DNA of 64,000 nucleotides, from the NCBI RefSeq assembly GCF_016743815.1, contig NZ_CP061035.1, forward strand, positions 2,420,501 to 2,484,500, read 5' to 3'. Positions 4,782 through 51,484 of this stretch are shown here, piece after piece. The position numbers and the translations under genes were made by a program. Position 1 is the stretch's first letter. Each line of letters begins with the position of its first letter. The DNA comes from Sphingomonas aliaeris (GTDB taxonomy: Bacteria > Pseudomonadota > Alphaproteobacteria > Sphingomonadales > Sphingomonadaceae). A model generated the notes under the pieces. It did not search any database. It was not told the origin of the DNA and saw only the letters and a list, made by a program, of their open reading frames with translations.

Positions 4782-6350
4782 ATGAACCTCACACGCGCGC
4801 TCGGATCGGTGGGGGGCCTCACCCTCGCCAGCCGCGTGCTGGGGCTCGTCCGCGATTCGCTCTTTGCGCGCTTCGTCGGGGCGGGGTTCGCGTCGGACGC
4901 GTTTCTCGTCGCTTTCCGCCTGCCCAACCTGTTCCGCGCCCTGTTTGCGGAGGGTGCCTTTTCCGCCGCATTCGTCCCGATGTTCAATCGCAAGGTCGGG
5001 GACAAGGCTGGCGCCGGCCTGCCCGACGGGATAGTTTTCGCGCAGGACGTCTTGTCCGTCCTGTTCCCGATCCTGATCGTCATGACGGTCATGCTGGAAC
5101 TGCTCGCCTGGCCCGTTACTCTGGCCTTGTCGGGCAAGTTCAACGGGGTCAGCCACGATCAGTTCGCCTTCGCGGTGATGTTGTCGCGGCTGACGATACC
5201 GTATCTGATGCTGATCAGCCTCGTGTCGTTGCTCGGCAGCATCCTCAATTCGATGCATAAATTCTGGGTAAACGCCGCCGCGCCGATCCTGCTCAACCTG
5301 ACGCTGATTGCCGCGTTGCTGTTCTTCCATGCCGCCGATCCGTACGGCACCGCGCGCAACCAGGCGCTGGCGGTCACCATTTCGGGCGCGCTGCAACTGC
5401 TCTGGCTGATCTGGGCGTGCCGGGCGAACGGCATCCGCCTGCGCCTGAAACTGCCGCGCTTCGGTCCCGACGTGAAGCGGCTGCTCGCGCTCATCCTGCC
5501 CGCCGCCGCCGGCGCGGGTGCGGTGCAGATCAACCTCGTCGTCTCGACCGCGCTTGCCGCCTCCTTGCTCGCGCACGGGTCGGTGACCTATATCTATATG
5601 GCCGACCGCGTGAATCAGTTGCCGCTCGGGCTGATCGGCATCGGGCTCGGCACCGTCCTGCTCCCGCTCATCTCCCGGCAACTCGCGTCTGGCGATGAAG
5701 CGGCGGCGATGGAAACGCAGAATCGCGGGCTGGAACTGGCGCTGCTGCTTACCCTGCCCGCCACCGTCGCATTGGTCCTGTGCGGCGGCCCTATCGTCGC
5801 CGCGCTCTTCCAGCATGGCAAGTTCACGCCGGAGGACACGTATTTCACCGCACAGGCGCTCGCCGCATTCTCAGTCGGCTTACCCAGCTATATTCTGGTG
5901 AAGGTGCTGACGCCGGGCTTCTACGCCCGCGCCGACACCCGGACGCCGGTTCGCTACGCCACGATCTCGATGGTCGTGAACCTCGTCCTCAACCTCGCTT
6001 TGATCGCCCCGCTGAAACATATGGGCCCGCCGCTCGCCACCGCGCTGGCCTCCACCGTGAACGTCGCATTGTTATACCGGATGCTGCGGAAACGCGGGCA
6101 ATTCGTGCCGGACGCGCGATTGCTCCGCCGCGTTTGGCGACTGGCCTTGTCCGCGCTGGCGATGGGTGCCGTGCTGTGGCTGCTGCAGGGGTACGTCATG
6201 CCGTATACGCACGGCACCTGGGCCGTCCGCTCGACCGCGATGGTCGTGCTGGTCGCGGCAGGCGGGCTGGTCTATGCGATCGCAACCTTCGTCCTCGGCG
6301 CGTTCACCCGCGACGACCTCGCCTTCCTCCGGCGCCGCCGCGCCGCATGA
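4782..6350 (+). CDS. murJ: Lipid II flippase MurJ (MviN family)
   Basis: 522 aa polytopic membrane protein of the MATE-like MurJ/MviN family, with about 14 hydrophobic segments. The N-terminus carries the diagnostic run [20 protein letters not shown] and the [15 protein letters not shown] motif, including the conserved Arg and Asp residues of the central cavity. MurJ moves lipid-linked peptidoglycan precursor across the inner membrane. The C-terminal end is rich in Arg. The stop overlaps the trpS start as ATGA, so murJ and trpS are co-translated. Confidence 0.97.
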
Positions 6351-42634: not shown

Positions 42635-44762
42635 TTCGAGATCGCCCAGGTAATCGCGGCGGTCAGGCCGATCAGCATGACGAACGCATAGCTATAGAGA
42701 TACCCCGTTTGAACCCTGGCGGTGACTCGCGTGCCCTGCTGTACCAGCCAGGCCGACCCGTTCGGGCCGAAGCGATCGATCGTCCTCTCGTCCCCGCGGT
42801 GCCAGAAGAACCTCCCGATCGCGAAGGCCGGCCGCACGAAGATGAGATGGTACAATTCGTCGAAATACCATTTGTGCAGCAGAAAGTCGTAGATCACGCT
42901 GAACTGTGCCGCCAGCGTCGCCGGGAAGCCCGGGTTCCGGATATAAGCGAGCCAGGCCGTCCACAGACCGAGCAACATCGCGATCGTCGCCGATAGTTTG
43001 ATGATCGTCGGGACGCCGTGCATTTCGTGCATTAGATGTTCGCGGAAGGCGATGGCATTGTGCCAGAACCGTTCGCCCGCTTCCGGCTCGATGAAGAAGC
43101 TGTGGAACGCGAAACCGGCCGCGATCGCGCCGATCGACAGGACGATCAGCGGGATCAACATCGGCAGCGGGCTTTCGTGCGGGTGATAGCCACCCGTCCC
43201 TGCCGGCAGTTCGTGCGCGCCGGCCGAATGCGTATCGGGCGTATGCCCGGCATCTTCGACGGCCGGGTGCGCGTCGTCCGCAGCGTGATGCGCATCGTGT
43301 GCGGCATGATGGCCGTCATGGCCATGATCGCCATGACCATGCGCCTCGTGGATCGCGTGCTGGATATGCTCGGACCGCGCCCAACGCGGCTTGCCGTAGA
43401 AGGTGAGGAACATCAGCCGCCACGAATAGAAGCTGGTCAGCAATGCGACGAGCACGCCGACGAACCACACGCCGGGCTGGCCCGCGGCCCATGCGCCTTC
43501 GATGATCGCGTCCTTCGAATGGAAACCGGCAAAACCGATCGCCAGATGGTTGCCGAACACAGCGGGAAGCCCGACGCCGGTGATCGCCAAGGTACCGGCC
43601 ATCATCGCCCAGAACGTCACCGGAATGCTTTTCCGCAGGCCGCCATAATAGCGCATATCCTGTTCGTGATGCATTGCGTGAATCACCGAACCGGCGCCCA
43701 GGAACAGCAAGGCCTTGAAGAAGGCATGCGTGAACAGGTGGAACATCGCCGCGCCGTAAGCGCCGACGCCCGCTGCGAAGAACATATAGCCAAGCTGCGA
43801 GCAGGTCGAATAGGCGATCACGCGCTTGATGTCGGTCTGCACCAGCCCGCACGTCGCGGCGAACAGGCATGTCGCGGCGCCGATCGTGGTAACCACGCTC
43901 AGGGCGACCGGGCTCGTCTCGAACATCGGCGACAGACGGCAGACCATGAACACGCCCGCAGTGACCATCGTCGCCGCGTGGATCAGCGCCGACACCGGGG
44001 TCGGCCCCTCCATCGCGTCCGGCAACCAGGTGTGCAGCCCGAGCTGCGCCGACTTGCCCATCGCGCCGACGAACAGCAGCAGGCACAGGACCGTCATCGT
44101 GTCGAGATCGGTATCCGAGAAAGCCGATCGTCGATCCGGCCATACCCGGTGCGGCAGCGAGGATTTCCGGGATCGAGACAGTATTGAACACCAGGAACGT
44201 GCCGAAGATGCCGAGCATGAAGCCCAGATCGCCGACGCGGTTGACGACGAACGCCTTGATCGCCGCGGCGTTCGCGCTCGGTTTCTTGAACCAGAAGCCG
44301 ATCAGCAGATAGCTTGCGAGACCGACGCCTTCCCAGCCAAAGAACATCTGGACGAGGTTGTTCGCCGTCACCAGCATCAACATCGCGAAGGTGAACAGCG
44401 ATAGATAGGCGAAGAAGCGCGGCTGGCTGTCGTCTTCCGACATATAGCCCCAGCTATACAGATGGACGAGCGCGGACACGCTGGTGACCACGACGAGCAT
44501 TACGGCGGTCAGCAGAATCCACCTTCAATGCCCAGGACACGTCCATGTCGCCGGAATGGATGAAGTGCAGCACCGGCACGACATAGGCCTCCGCTTCCCC
44601 GCCGATAAACGACAGGAAGATCGGCCAGCTGAGCGCGCAGGACAGGAAGAGCGCCCCGGTCGTGACGACCTTGGAGGGCACCAGACCGATGACGTTGCGG
44701 CCGAGCCCCGCCACGATCGCGGCGAGCAGCGGCAGGAAGACGACGAAGAGGATCGCGTTCAC
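42631..44762 (-). pseudogene. nuoL: NADH-quinone oxidoreductase subunit L, two single-base frameshifts as read
   Basis: Starts at ATG 44762 (MNAILFVVFLPLLAAIVAGL). The frame breaks near 44518, where VSWALKVDS continues as [23 protein letters not shown] in the next frame. It breaks again near 44125, where TIGFLGY continues as [20 protein letters not shown]. Removing one base at each point gives 2130 nt, 709 aa. Both breaks are therefore one-base insertions, most likely errors. Core motifs ([44 protein letters not shown], the K/H-rich broken helix) are intact. A His-rich cytoplasmic or periplasmic loop of some 65 residues precedes the C-terminal lateral-helix part. Confidence 0.92.
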
Positions 44763-46202: not shown

Positions 46203-47380
46203 AGGCTGGCCTCCGTTCTGGTGACGACCCGGTCGCGGCACACGCCGTCGGTCGGGTAGGTCGGACGCTGGGCATCGTACAGGCCCGATGGCGTCGCATA
46301 TCGCTTGAGATACACGCGATCGGCCGGAGCGCAGTCCGTGCCGACGCGCGTCAGCATGAGGAACCCGGACACCAGGAACACCCAGAAGAGCGACAGCGGC
46401 AGAAATACCTTCCAACCCAACCGCATCAACTGGTCGTAGCGATACCGCGGCACGGTCGCCTTCACCCAGCTGAACAGGAAGAAGAAGAACAGGATCTTGG
46501 CGAACAGCCAGATGATCCCCGGTACCAGATACAGCGGCGCCCAGTCGAACGGAGGCAGATATCCGCCCCAGAATAACGTCGCGTTCAGCGTGCACATCAG
46601 GATGACGTTGGCATATTCGCCCAGCCAGTAGAGCGCGAACGACATGGACGAATATTCTGTCTGATACCCCGCGACCAACTCGCTTTCCGCCTCGGTCAGA
46701 TCGAACGGCGCACGCTGGGTTTCGGCAAGCGAGGAGATGAAGAACACGATCGACATCGGGAACAGCAACGGATTGAACGCATAGCCGTTGATGAAGCCGT
46801 ACAGGCCCTTCTGACCTTCGACGATCGCGGTCAGGTTGAAGCTGCCGGTCCACAGCACGATCGAGATCAGCACGAACCCGATCGCCACTTCATAACTGAC
46901 CATCTGCGCCGCGGCACGGATCGCCGAGAAGAACGGATATTTCGAGTTGGACGACCAACCGGCCAGGATGATGCCGTAAACGCCGAGCGACGACGCCGCG
47001 AGGACGTAAAGCAAGCCGACATTGATGTTGGCGAGCACGACGCCGACCTGGAACGGCACCACCGCCCATACGATCAGCGCGACGGTGAAGGTGATGATCG
47101 GCGCAAGCAGGAACAGGCCCTTGTTCGCCGCCGTCGGCACGATCGTTTCCTGAAGGAAGACCTTCAGACCATCGGCAAAGGATTGCAGCAGTCCGAACGG
47201 GCCCACGACGTTGGGGCCGCGACGCAGCGCCATCGCCGCCCAGATCTTTCGATCGGCATAGATGATCATTGCCACGGCCAGCATCAGCGGCAGTGCGATG
47301 ACGAGAATGCCGACGATCGTGGACGTGAACCACGCCCATTCGAACGGCATACCGACAGTGTTCTGGAAGAATGCGGTCAT
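46199..47380 (-). CDS. nuoH: NADH-quinone oxidoreductase subunit H
   Basis: 393 aa with eight or so membrane segments, overlapping the nuoG stop (ATGA). It has the [20 protein letters not shown] quinone-site motif, the [20 protein letters not shown] loop and [17 protein letters not shown]. It forms the quinone chamber with NuoB and NuoD. A polar C-terminal tail of about 45 residues extends beyond the core. Confidence 0.97.
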
Positions 47381-49380
47381 TCCGCCGCCTCCGCATAATC
47401 TTCGCCGTGGATCAGTTCGGCCGAACAGCGCTGCATCGTCGGGCTAGCCCGGCAGATCGCATTGGTCAGGTAGAAGTCTTTGATCGGATAGCCGGAAAGC
47501 TCGCCGGATCCAGTCTCGCCCAGCGCCGGAGGGTTCCACGCGAACGTCTTCAGCCCCAGCGTGGCAAGATTGGGCGTATCGCCGCCCATCGCCGCGCGCA
47601 GTTCGTCGATCGTGTCGAACGGCAACGTCTTGCCGAGCACTGCCGACAGTGCGCGCAGGATCGTCCAATCCTCGCGAGCATCGCCGGGTGGGAATACGGC
47701 GCGTTCGCCACGCTGCACGCGACCTTCCAGATTGACCCAGGTCCCCGACTTCTCCGCATAGCTTGCGCCCGGCAGGATAACGTCCGCCTGCGCCGCGCCG
47801 CGATCGCCGTGATGTCCGATGAACACCTTGAAACTGCCCGAGAAGGCCGAGAAATCTACTTCGTCGGCGCCGAGGAAGAAGGTCAGCTTCGGCTTGGCAG
47901 CGGCGACATCAGCGATGCCGCCCTTCTGCGCCCAACCGAGCATCAGCCCGCCCATGCGCGATGCCGCCATGTGCAGTACGTTGAACCCGTTCCAGCCATC
48001 GCGCACCAGGTTCAGCGACGTGGCCAATGCCAGTGCGGCGCCATGCCCGCCCTTCAACGCCGCGCCGCCGACGATGACCATCGGCGCCTTGGCGTCCTTG
48101 AACGCCTCCGTCACGGCATCCGGCAGATTGCCGAGCAAGGCCAGATCGCTGCCGATCCACTCCGCCTTGTAGGTCAGGTCCGTCTCCGGCCCGATCGCAA
48201 AGACCTTCGCGCCCTTCTTGATCGCCTTGCGAATGCGCGTGTTGACCAAGGGCGCTTCCCAACGAACGTTGGTACCGACGAGCAGGATCACGTCCGCGTC
48301 TTCGGTGCCGGCGATCGTCGTGTTGAAATTGACCGCGGCGATGTTCGTCGCGTCGTAATCCATCCCCGTCTGACGGCCCTCCAGCAATGTGGAGCCCATC
48401 GACGCGAGCAAGGCCTTCGCCGCGTACAAGGTTTCGCAATCGACCAGATCGCCATGCACCGCGGCGACGCTGTCACCTGCATCGACCGCCTTGATCGCGG
48501 CGAATGCCTCGTCCCAGGTCGCTTTTTGCAGTTTGCCGTTCACGCGAACGTACGGCGTATCGAGCCGGCCGCGAACCAGGCCATCGACCGCATGCCGCGT
48601 CTTGTCCGACGCCCATTCCTCGTTGACGTCCTCGTTGATCACGGGGAGCGCGCGCAGCACCTGGCGCCCGCGGCTGTCGAGCCGGATGTTGGTGCCGACT
48701 GCATCCATCACGTCGATCGTCAGCGTCTTCTTGAGCTCCCACGGCCGCGCCTCGAAAGCGTAAGGCTTGGACGTCAGCGCACCGACCGGGCACAGATCCA
48801 CTACGTTACCCGACAATTCGCTCTTCACGGCATTTTCGAGATAGGACGTGATCTGCATGTCCTCGCCGCGATAGATCGCGCCGATTTCCTCCACGCCCGA
48901 AACCTCCTCGGCGAAGCGGATGCAACGCGTGCACTGGATGCACCGCGTCATGATCGTCTTCACGATCGGTCCCATATACTTCTCGGTCACCGCGCGCTTG
49001 TTCTCGGCATAACGCGACTGGCCACGACCATAAGCGACCGACTGGTCCTGCAGATCGCATTCGCCGCCCTGATCGCAGATCGGGCAATCGAGCGGGTGGT
49101 TGATCAGCAGGAATTCCATGATGCCTTCGCGGGCATTCTTCACCATCGGCGTGTTGGTGAAGATTTCCTGATTGTCCGCGGCCGGCAACGCGCACGACGC
49201 CTGCGGCTTGGGCGGACCAGGCTTCACCTCGACCAGGCACATGCGGCAATTGCCGGCGATGCTCAGACGCTCGTGATAGCAGAAACGCGGAATTTCCTTA
49301 CCCGCGATTTCGCAAGCCTGCAGCACGGTGGCGCCGGCAGGAACTTCGACCTCGACGCCGTCTACTTTGACTTTAGGCAT
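47377..49380 (-). CDS. nuoG: NADH-quinone oxidoreductase subunit G
   Basis: 667 aa. The N-terminal ferredoxin-like domain has 2Fe-2S ligands ([15 protein letters not shown]...C), then the His/Cys N5 cluster region ([17 protein letters not shown]) and the second 4Fe-4S set ([10 protein letters not shown]). The large C-terminal half is the molybdopterin-oxidoreductase-like domain without cofactor. The start overlaps the stop of the inserted secreted-protein gene (TAATG). Confidence 0.96.
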
Positions 49381-50078
49381 TAATTGGATTCCGCCGTGGC
49401 GACAGGATGCCGCCGTTTATACAAAGCCTCTGCAGCCCAGCCATGAATTGCAGTACCGCTAATATCGACCCTGCCCTTGCCCCGTCCGCACGCATTGAGC
49501 GCCGGTGCCAGCGCCCGTCCGGCATCACTTTCTGCAACGGACATACGCTTGGCACGCACAAGTCGATCGGCCGCGAGCGGCTCGCGATCAACGGCGCAAC
49601 GAACCACCACATACCCAACTGGCAGCAAACGATCCGCCCGATCGACTGAGGCGAAGTTTTGCGAGGCGGTACCTGACGTCTCACCGGACCCCAAATAAAG
49701 ACGCGTCACGATAGCGCCTCGAAGCGCCCGCCGGGAAAAAATCATTTGTCGTCGATCGTTCGCCATTTGGGCAGCAGCCGCCCCGAGCGACGTTTGTCCG
49801 AGGTTCACCGACGCCGCCAACCCCGCACTCTGGATCGAAGTGCCCAATCTCATGCATTTGCTATGCTTTTGAAACAGACGATCGATTTGTGTCTGCTCAT
49901 CCGCACTCTCTGGCATGGATTCGATCACCCGGCGTGACTGTTGCGGCGCTTCACGCACAGCACATCGCGCAAAATCAGCGAGGACCTTCTCGCCATCGAG
50001 ACTTGGCTTTGTCGCTGCCAAGGACGGGGTGGGAAAGCACAGCATCATCCCGGCCGGAAATAGAAACGTGCGCTTCAT
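49380..50078 (-). CDS. Secreted tandem-repeat hypothetical protein inside the nuo operon
   Basis: 232 aa, starting at ATG 50078 overlapping the nuoF stop (TAATG) and ending in a TAA that overlaps the nuoG ATG. A signal peptide covers about residues 1-21 (MKRTFLFPAGMMLCFPTPSLA). The mature part consists of two copies of one motif: Cys39...Cys75 and Cys161...Cys197, both 36 residues apart and each opening R-C-A-V. Each is followed by a related helix, FSRRALRGAIVTRLY (114-128) and ISGTAIHGWAAEALY (206-220). No domain name is known to me. Similar Cys-pair repeats occur, as I recall, in other uncharacterised sphingomonad exported proteins. Base composition is less GC-rich than the flanking nuo genes. 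Confidence 0.8.
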   Translation of the reverse strand: MKRTFLFPAGMMLCFPTPSLAATKPSLDGEKVLADFARCAVREAPQQSRRVIESMPESADEQTQIDRLFQKHSKCMRLGTSIQSAGLAASVNLGQTSLGAAAAQMANDRRQMIFSRRALRGAIVTRLYLGSGETSGTASQNFASVDRADRLLPVGYVVVRCAVDREPLAADRLVRAKRMSVAESDAGRALAPALNACGRGKGRVDISGTAIHGWAAEALYKRRHPVATAESN

Positions 50079-51386
50079 TATTCCGCCGCTTCCATCATCG
50101 GCGACAGATCGCCGCCGCCGTTTCGTTCGAGTATCCGCCGCTCCATTTCCGGACGGAAATGCTTGATTAGCCCCTGGATCGGCCATGCCGCAGCATCGCC
50201 GAGCGCGCAGATCGAATGACCCTCGACCTGCTTGGTGACCTGCTGGAGCATGTCGATCTCGCTGATGTCGGCATCGCCGGTGCGCATCCGCTCCATCACG
50301 CGCCACATCCAGCCGGTACCTTCGCGGCACGGCGTGCACTGGCCGCAGCTTTCATGCTTGTAGAAGTAGGAGATCCGGCTGATCGCGCGGACGATATCAG
50401 TGGACTTGTCCATCACGATCACGGCCGCAGTGCCGAGACCGGATCCGACCGCCTTCAGGCCGTCGAAATCCATCGGGACGTCCATGATCTCGGCGGCCGG
50501 CACCAAAGGCACGGACGACCCGCCCGGGATGACGGCGAGCAGATTGTCCCAGCCACCACGGATGCCGCCGCAATGCGTCTCGATCAGTTCGCGGAAGGTG
50601 ATGCTCATCGCCTCTTCCACGACGCACGGCGTGTTCACATGGCCGCTAATCTGGAAGAGCTTCGTGCCTTCGTTCTTTTCGCGACCGAAGCTGGCGAACC
50701 ATTCCGGCGACCGGCGCAGGATCGTCGGCACGACCGCGATCGATCTCGACGTTGTTCACCGTGGTCGGGCAGCCGTACAGCCCCGCGCCCGCCGGGAAAG
50801 GCGGCTTGAGGCGCGGCTGGCCCTTCTTGCCCTCCAGGCTTTCGAGCATCGCCGTCTCTTCGCCGCAGATATACGCGCCCGCGCCGCGATGGACGAAGAC
50901 GTCGAAGTCGTAGCCGGACTTGCACGCATTCTTGCCGATCAGACCGGCCGCATAAGCCTCGGCCACGGCAGCGAAAAGCGTCTCCGCCTCCCGGATATAT
51001 TCGCCGCGGATGTAGATGTACGCGGCGCGCGCGCGCATCGCGAAGCCGGCGATCAACGCGCCTTCGATCAGCTTGTGCGGATCGTGCCGGATAATCTCGC
51101 GATCCTTGCACGATCCGGGCTCAGATTCGTCCGCGTTGATGACGAGGAAGTTCGGACGGTCCGGCTTCGGTTCCTTTGGCATGAAGCTCCACTTCATACC
51201 GGTCGGGAAGCCTGCCCCACCGCGCCCGCGCAGGCCCGATGCCTTGACCTTGTCGATCAGCCCGTCCTGCCCGATCTTCATCAGGTCGGCGGTCTTGTCC
51301 CAATCGCCGCGCGCCATCGCCGCCTTCAGATTCCATGGCTGGAACCCGTACACGTTGGTGAAGATGCGATCCTTATCGGCGAGCAT
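50078..51386 (-). pseudogene. nuoF: NADH-quinone oxidoreductase subunit F, single-base frameshift as read
   Basis: Starts at ATG 51386 and is intact through the FMN/NADH-binding region ([52 protein letters not shown]). It then shifts frame at about 50742. The continuation [17 protein letters not shown] and the 4Fe-4S ligands [12 protein letters not shown] plus a later Cys run on to 50078. Removing one A (GAG-A-TCGATCGCG) restores V-E-S-I-A-V-V-P, as in homologues, and gives 435 aa. Likely a one-base insertion error. NuoF is the NADH dehydrogenase site of complex I. Confidence 0.92.
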
Positions 51387-51484
51387 TACTTCTTGCCCTT
51401 CTTCGCGCCCGAGATTGCAATGAACATCATCAGGCCAGCGCCCATGAACACCGCGAGCAAGGCGATCCACACGGCCGGGTTCAT
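51386..51484 (-). CDS. 32-aa single-span membrane protein between nuoE and nuoF
   Basis: Encodes [20 protein letters not shown] and then [12 protein letters not shown]. The ATG overlaps the nuoE stop as ATGA and the TAA overlaps the nuoF start as TAATG, so every base is embedded in the translational chain. One transmembrane helix (about residues 4-25) is followed by a Lys-rich tail, giving a predicted N-out/C-in topology. It is too short for most gene callers. No known complex I subunit has this sequence, so it is either an accessory subunit or a coupling peptide. Confidence 0.7.

Follow-up and report, generated by a model that had tools for sequence, protein, structure and literature searches.

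A variable slot between nuoF and nuoG in Sphingomonadaceae, mostly filled by a secreted-looking family of helical-repeat proteins

The gene between nuoF and nuoG

In the 64,000-nt stretch of the Sphingomonas aliaeris genome analysed here (the window), the operon for respiratory complex I carries an extra gene, referred to below as gene X, which is read from the minus strand between nuoF and nuoG and shares the pentanucleotide TAATG with each of them. The features of this junction, in the order in which they are read, are:

50078..51470, minus strand: nuoF, upstream flank of the slot, present as two overlapping frames (50078-50731 and 50646-51470) in the ORF list
50076..50080, minus strand: TAATG overlap of the nuoF stop and the gene X start, seen in the sequence
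49380..50078, minus strand: gene X, encoding a 232-aa predicted secreted protein with two repeats and four cysteines (ORF, relatives, predicted structure)
50016..50078, minus strand: predicted Sec signal peptide, residues ~1-21 (by eye; the structural model has low confidence here; relatives are alike)
49686..49997, minus strand: repeat 1, residues 28-131, with Cys39 and Cys75 (profile comparison, model)
49410..49622, minus strand: repeat 2, residues 153-223, with Cys161 and Cys197 (profile comparison, model, conservation)
49378..49382, minus strand: TAATG overlap of the gene X stop and the nuoG ATG, seen in the sequence
47377..49380, minus strand: nuoG, downstream flank of the slot (ORF list, relatives)

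That a 232-aa frame is locked between nuoF and nuoG by a TAATG on either side had been proposed in an original prediction made from the letters of the window, together with the suggestion that it is less GC-rich than its flanks, and both points were borne out. The GC content of gene X is 58.8% against 60-64% in six neighbouring nuo stretches, the difference being larger at third codon positions (58% against 76-84%), and a GC content this low is found in 1.7% of 699-bp segments. A search of the S. aliaeris genome for a second copy gave none that was recognisable, and a paralogue was dropped as a candidate, the sole match being at chance level (E 0.34). In this assembly, nuoF (50646-50745) is broken into two frames and nuoL (44108-44514) into three, while relatives have single frames; sequencing indels are the probable cause, the alternative being a defective complex I in this strain.

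Two homologous helical units

The architecture of the protein was examined with a family alignment of 46 rows, composed of database relatives and of divergent members taken from nuo loci. When the N-terminal half of this alignment is compared with the C-terminal half, the two are homologous (hhalign probability 99.0, E 3.7e-17), and with the four cysteines as its sole invariant columns across 46 diverse rows, the mature part of gene X is a true internal duplication, as had been predicted. Exactly four cysteines past residue 20 are found in 44 of the 46 members, gene X having one more, Cys14, within its signal peptide. Further details of the original prediction can be read directly in gene X: both copies carry RCAV (38-41 and 160-163), and both have LY in their last helix, as RLY in repeat 1 and ALY in repeat 2. 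The claim that the second cysteine lies exactly 36 residues after the first in both repeats is correct for gene X itself (39/75 and 161/197) and, at the level of the family, survives for repeat 2, where 45 of 46 rows have a spacing of 36 (overall 36-37), but not for repeat 1, where it ranges from 33 to 43 and equals 36 in just 19 rows. Among close relatives it is the end of repeat 2 that is most conserved: 11 of its 24 columns do not vary, compared with 9 of 52 in the opening part of repeat 1.

The predicted structure, which the original prediction had proposed as a check, is confident (pLDDT 85.7) and entirely helical. In the model, repeat 1 has helices at 28-43, 45-53 and 59-71, two insert helices at 82-92 and 98-107 and a closing helix at 116-130, while repeat 2 is made of helices at 154-165, 167-175, 181-198 and 208-223. 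Matches of this model to PDB structures are at the level expected by chance for helical proteins and give no clear or informative fold. Each repeat is probably stapled by one disulfide, Cys39-Cys75 in repeat 1 and Cys161-Cys197 in repeat 2. At the N-terminus, a signal peptide layout was recognised as predicted, with a KR n-region, a hydrophobic core and small residues preceding the mature part; it recurs in most of the named relatives, and was assessed by eye and with a home-made hydrophobicity score. The protein is probably exported, to judge from this layout.

Helical proteins that are held by disulfides and face the positive side of the membrane are familiar from mitochondrial complex I, in which NDUFA8 and NDUFS5 are CHCH subunits of the intermembrane space with twin CX9C motifs. 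The likeness to gene X, in which the disulfides are inferred, goes no further than this general layout, as both units of gene X show the pattern C-x35-C and CX9C is absent from it, and the twin CX9C pattern is likewise missing from the family, given the cysteine spacings of its two repeats.

A family of the Sphingomonadaceae

A search of 5.8 billion proteins returned 25 relatives of gene X besides its own protein, and those that carry a name from their source are called ‘hypothetical protein’. The gene X protein itself has zero matches in Pfam, NCBIfam, PADLOC and PHROGs, and the family profile has none among PDB sequences at E values up to 10. Other members give isolated weak library matches, with one member per matched family; the best E values are 0.0071 in Pfam and 0.00098 in NCBIfam, from alignment scans that do not show curated cut-offs beside them, and PADLOC gives a single weak match for 1 of the 46 members (E 0.048). 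Weak matches in these four libraries were discarded, being scattered over unrelated families with one member each. The family looks undescribed, no description of the gene or of its slot having been found in openly licensed PMC papers.

A profile survey across genomes, similar to the one suggested for sphingomonads in the original prediction, shows how narrowly the family is distributed. In an order-wide sample, its profile matches 32 of 147 genomes, all of them in one family, identified as Sphingomonadaceae by named relatives, and in a class-wide sample of 190 genomes it matches the window, the congener G005 and one 54-residue stretch at E 8.5e-4, a borderline candidate for a member outside the Sphingomonadaceae that was taken as chance. 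The 46 matches of the order sample comprise 41 just upstream of nuoG, 1 between nuoG and nuoH and 4 elsewhere. The genus sample (101 genomes) has 76 matches, again with 41 just upstream of nuoG and with 35 elsewhere; among matches ranked above E 1.1e-17, 40 of 51 are just upstream of nuoG. Pooling the two samples, the nuo locus accounts for 79 of 117 distinct matches, three shared genomes (five matches, four at nuo) being counted once; the uncorrected figure is 83 of 122. Among the best 80 of 584 named nuoG loci, two of which have no measurable F-G junction, 31 have a family match, one being cut short by the end of its contig (L072) and another lying in the nuoG-nuoH gap (L117).

A junction that changes its content

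To describe the junction itself, nuo regions were compared from 63 further Sphingomonadaceae genomes of the order sample and from one chosen genome, L194. The counts below refer to 61 genomes with a measurable F-G junction, the window included and L194, which was picked for carrying the family, excluded; L190, L191 and L193 were left out as no nuoF was found in the stretch. Of these 61 genomes, 30 have the family at nuo, 29 times in F-G and once in G-H (L145, scored as family-bearing with other ORFs in its F-G junction). Another 12 have other ORFs alone in the F-G junction, which by eye include several small membrane proteins and a coiled-coil-like protein of 76 aa, and in the remaining 19 the junction is empty, consisting of a bare TAATG in 16 and of 2-3 nt in three. 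Very divergent members could be overlooked by the family profile in the 12 junctions with other ORFs, but not in the 19 empty ones.

The lengths of the nuo junctions give the same picture. F-G is at least 600 nt long in 28 of 63 genomes; D-E, the next most frequent, reaches this length in 3 of 62, G-H and H-I in one each, and the junctions from J-K to M-N never exceed 160 nt. The survey of nuoF-nuoG junctions across Alphaproteobacteria that had been called for found variability in Sphingomonadaceae, against an F-G junction shorter than 90 nt in 25 of 28 loci from other alphaproteobacterial families (30 examined of 48 class-sample genomes with nuoG, minus the window’s genome and G005). The F-G junction of Sphingomonadaceae is a variable slot, mostly filled by a secreted-looking family.

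Even close relatives differ in what the slot holds: L150 has one copy where L152 is empty, and L182, L184 and L185 have, respectively, a copy, another ORF and nothing. Presence of the family requires 21 changes on a NuoG tree against a shuffled mean of 21.2, and 21 changes on a tree of NuoG+H+L+M+N against 20.9 (62 rows each, L194 included), a turnover that is measured between species and an absence of clustering that holds for the present sampling depth. Bacterial hotspots, which are variable gene slots with a fixed site, changing content and conserved flanks, offer the obvious comparison; the F-G slot differs from them in lying inside a core respiratory operon, in mostly overlapping both of its flanks and in holding mostly one secreted family. 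Core respiratory operons are taken as conserved, yet here one junction turns over its genes with roughly the freedom of a genomic hotspot.

While the content changes, the overlaps with the neighbouring genes mostly stay. In 29 of 30 family junctions (L194 included), a start codon in frame with the first gene shares 4 or 1 nt with the nuoF stop, and the last family stop falls -8 to +10 nt from the nuoG start in 25 of the 30, being 51-419 nt away in the other five. We infer that these overlaps act as translational coupling. Several slots hold more than one family gene. In the F-G junction of L162 (G120), two tandem genes are fused to give a four-repeat protein with a single signal peptide, a fusion which suggests that the products of tandem copies can act together. 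L194 (G173) has three family genes, two close to genes of L132 and L068 and the third to that of the window. In L031 the 3' end of nuoF occurs a second time (~1921-2097), flanked by two family genes, and the fourth family gene of L068 opens with a stretch copied from the nuoG 5' end (5249-5310), 45 of its 62 nt being identical; these flank copies are possible scars and hint at growth of the slot by flank duplication.

Selection and history

The family evolves fast and is under purifying selection, which marks it as made of real genes: dN/dS is 0.16-0.38 in 11 pairs of relatives, whose nuoG genes give 0.03-0.16. The pairs were hand-picked from a list and include two with saturated dS. With the family present at nuo in about half of the genomes compared and its dN/dS in this range, the gene is not absent from all related nuo operons and does not look like one in neutral decay, and with an hhalign probability of 99.0 its halves are not dissimilar; these were the two findings that the original prediction had named as evidence against it.

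The nearest relative of a copy belongs to a genome at median rank 5 of 30 by NuoG (15.5 expected), and to the NuoG-nearest genome itself for 7 of 44 copies. This last figure makes a simple vertical history insufficient, and the history of the family appears to be partly vertical and partly one of loss of old paralogues or of transfer. As to how slots might be exchanged, the flanks adjacent to the slot show an identity dip of at most a few percent in their first 150 nt (12 pairs, most with different slot content), so homologous recombination was rejected as an established route and counts as a candidate.

Passenger or partner of complex I

The original prediction had left two readings of gene X, a periplasmic accessory or assembly factor of complex I and a passenger in its operon, and the distribution of the family weakens the one and favours the other. 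An accessory subunit would accompany nuo throughout the lineage, whereas 31 of 61 genomes lack the family at nuo and a few of these, such as G005, carry a copy elsewhere. Nor does complex I itself register its presence: against 4325 residue features of NuoF, NuoG, NuoH, NuoJ, NuoK, NuoL, NuoM and NuoN, no association with presence of the family was found and the idea of one was rejected (permutation p 0.97), the test scoring presence only in 61 genomes and therefore having limited power.

We lean towards gene X encoding an optional periplasmic helical-repeat protein that borrows the expression of nuo, in preference to a subunit of complex I. On this account, its product would be exported by Sec to the periplasm as two homologous helical units, each stapled by one disulfide, and the F-G slot would have been repeatedly filled, enlarged, emptied and refilled by Sphingomonadaceae. 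The slot would work because a gene whose start overlaps the nuoF stop, and whose own stop overlaps the start of nuoG, would always be produced along with complex I and would keep the translation of nuoG coupled. The task of the protein, an optional one, would lie on the side of the envelope and most likely consist in binding a variable partner, whether in an inhibitor- or immunity-like role or for envelope protection, and gene X would not be an obligatory part of complex I. As a whole, from exported repeats through variable slot to optional envelope-side binding, this explanation seems to us modestly probable. Against it stand the 79 of 117 matches at one locus, more than expected if any well-expressed operon would serve, and a secreted-looking protein at the same junction in another family, the Rhodobacteraceae, which could mean a link to complex I.

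This second protein belongs to DUF5333 (PF17267) and is encoded directly upstream of nuoG in the F-G gap of one rhodobacterial locus (G265/L225), where it is the protein of Shimia isoporae; with two invariant cysteines in 18 aligned relatives, it resembles gene X in position and apparent secretion, and differs from it in being 133 aa long with no second unit noticed. Homology between them was rejected, as hhalign of the 46-row family alignment against the 18 DUF5333 proteins gives a probability of 1.7, and PF17267 is missing from the Pfam matches of the 46 family members at E values up to 1. In L225, a lipoprotein-like ORF and the DUF5333 gene together fill the junction (1492-2338). Extra frames at nuo junctions are also a feature of the nuo operons of Paracoccus and Rhodobacter, whose URF genes include one between the equivalents of nuoF and nuoG; the likeness is to these extra frames in general, one rhodobacterial junction having been examined here.

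That gene X encodes a lineage-specific accessory subunit or assembly factor, docked on the membrane arm from the periplasmic side and dispensable in part of the lineage, is unlikely in our view. Most family copies do lie between nuoF and nuoG with overlaps, other secreted-looking or membrane ORFs occur in the D-E, E-F, G-H and H-I junctions, and the secreted DUF5333 protein shares the junction in one rhodobacterial genome. It has to be set against this that absence from nuo in half of the genomes comes without an associated change in eight Nuo subunits and that family copies sit at other sites too. In a further bacterial family, cryo-EM of Paracoccus complex I revealed NDUFS4, NDUFS6, NDUFA12 and PIMT as extra subunits, and, in the available part of that account, the extra subunits include no periplasmic one (PMC11522691). 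If the family does act on complex I, then bacterial complex I has lineage-specific periplasmic partners, of which we found no description; otherwise, one can read from the slot which genes it pays sphingomonads to express in step with respiration.

More doubtful still is an immunity role, in which the gene X protein would counter, in the periplasm, an antibacterial toxin or an injection factor of phages and the nuo slot would provide constant expression; this is one specific form of the passenger explanation and partly coincides with it. Immunity genes are usually marked by copies in tandem, rapid divergence, a patchy distribution and periplasmic disulfides; the family has the first three and probably the fourth, and the H-I slot has other very divergent secreted-looking proteins. 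However, PADLOC and PHROGs give no convincing match, no toxin gene was noticed beside the non-nuo copies in a by-eye look at their neighbours, and dN/dS is well below 1. Very improbable, finally, is a neutral or translational filler, in which the ORF would be a mere spacer tuning the output of NuoF relative to NuoG. The unrelated ORFs in 12 of 61 slots and the absence of any in 19 would fit a filler, but against it stand the cysteines kept in all 46 diverse rows, a retained signal peptide layout, a dN/dS of 0.16-0.38 and a confidently predicted fold. A wider and distinctly speculative reading makes the nuo operon of Sphingomonadaceae a plug-in socket, in which unrelated hypervariable periplasmic families, four-Cys helical proteins at F-G and mostly two-Cys proteins at H-I, are swapped at fixed junctions and together form an immunity-like arsenal guarding the energised inner membrane, its dose tied to that of complex I.

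Other nuo junctions and other sites of the family

Genes of other kinds are found at several nuo junctions. A second slot lies between nuoH and nuoI, where 11 of 65 nuo loci (e.g. L134, L152 and L189) encode secreted-looking proteins that differ from one another, are 125-172 aa long and mostly have two cysteines (by eye); of these, just one pair (L180 and L189) is similar by BLAST. The nuoD-nuoE junction (e.g. L140, L155 and L160) has a recurrent and conserved SnoaL-like protein of ~110-120 aa (named by eye), sometimes joined by ORFs for small membrane proteins or for secreted-looking ones. In L194 (G173), the 811-nt H-I junction contains a gene for a methyltransferase-like protein of 273 aa (by eye), and the 400-nt nuoG-nuoH junction of L135 (G005) is filled by an ORF resembling retropepsin-like aspartyl proteases (by eye).

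Copies of the family outside nuo were inspected in 20 chosen regions (the family gene being uncalled in one, L233) and six short loci, and lie at several unrelated sites, none with nuo genes. Four of these sites recur in two genomes each, with gene names assigned by eye: tandem copies beside uvrC (L226 and L227), and copies near an N-carbamoylputrescine amidase-like gene (L228 and L229), beside lptF/lptG-like genes (L234 and L239) and near a lysA-like gene (L237 and L238). Given this recurrence, further fixed sites for the family may exist outside nuo, and at one of the four, in L229, the copy overlaps the preceding gene by 4 nt.
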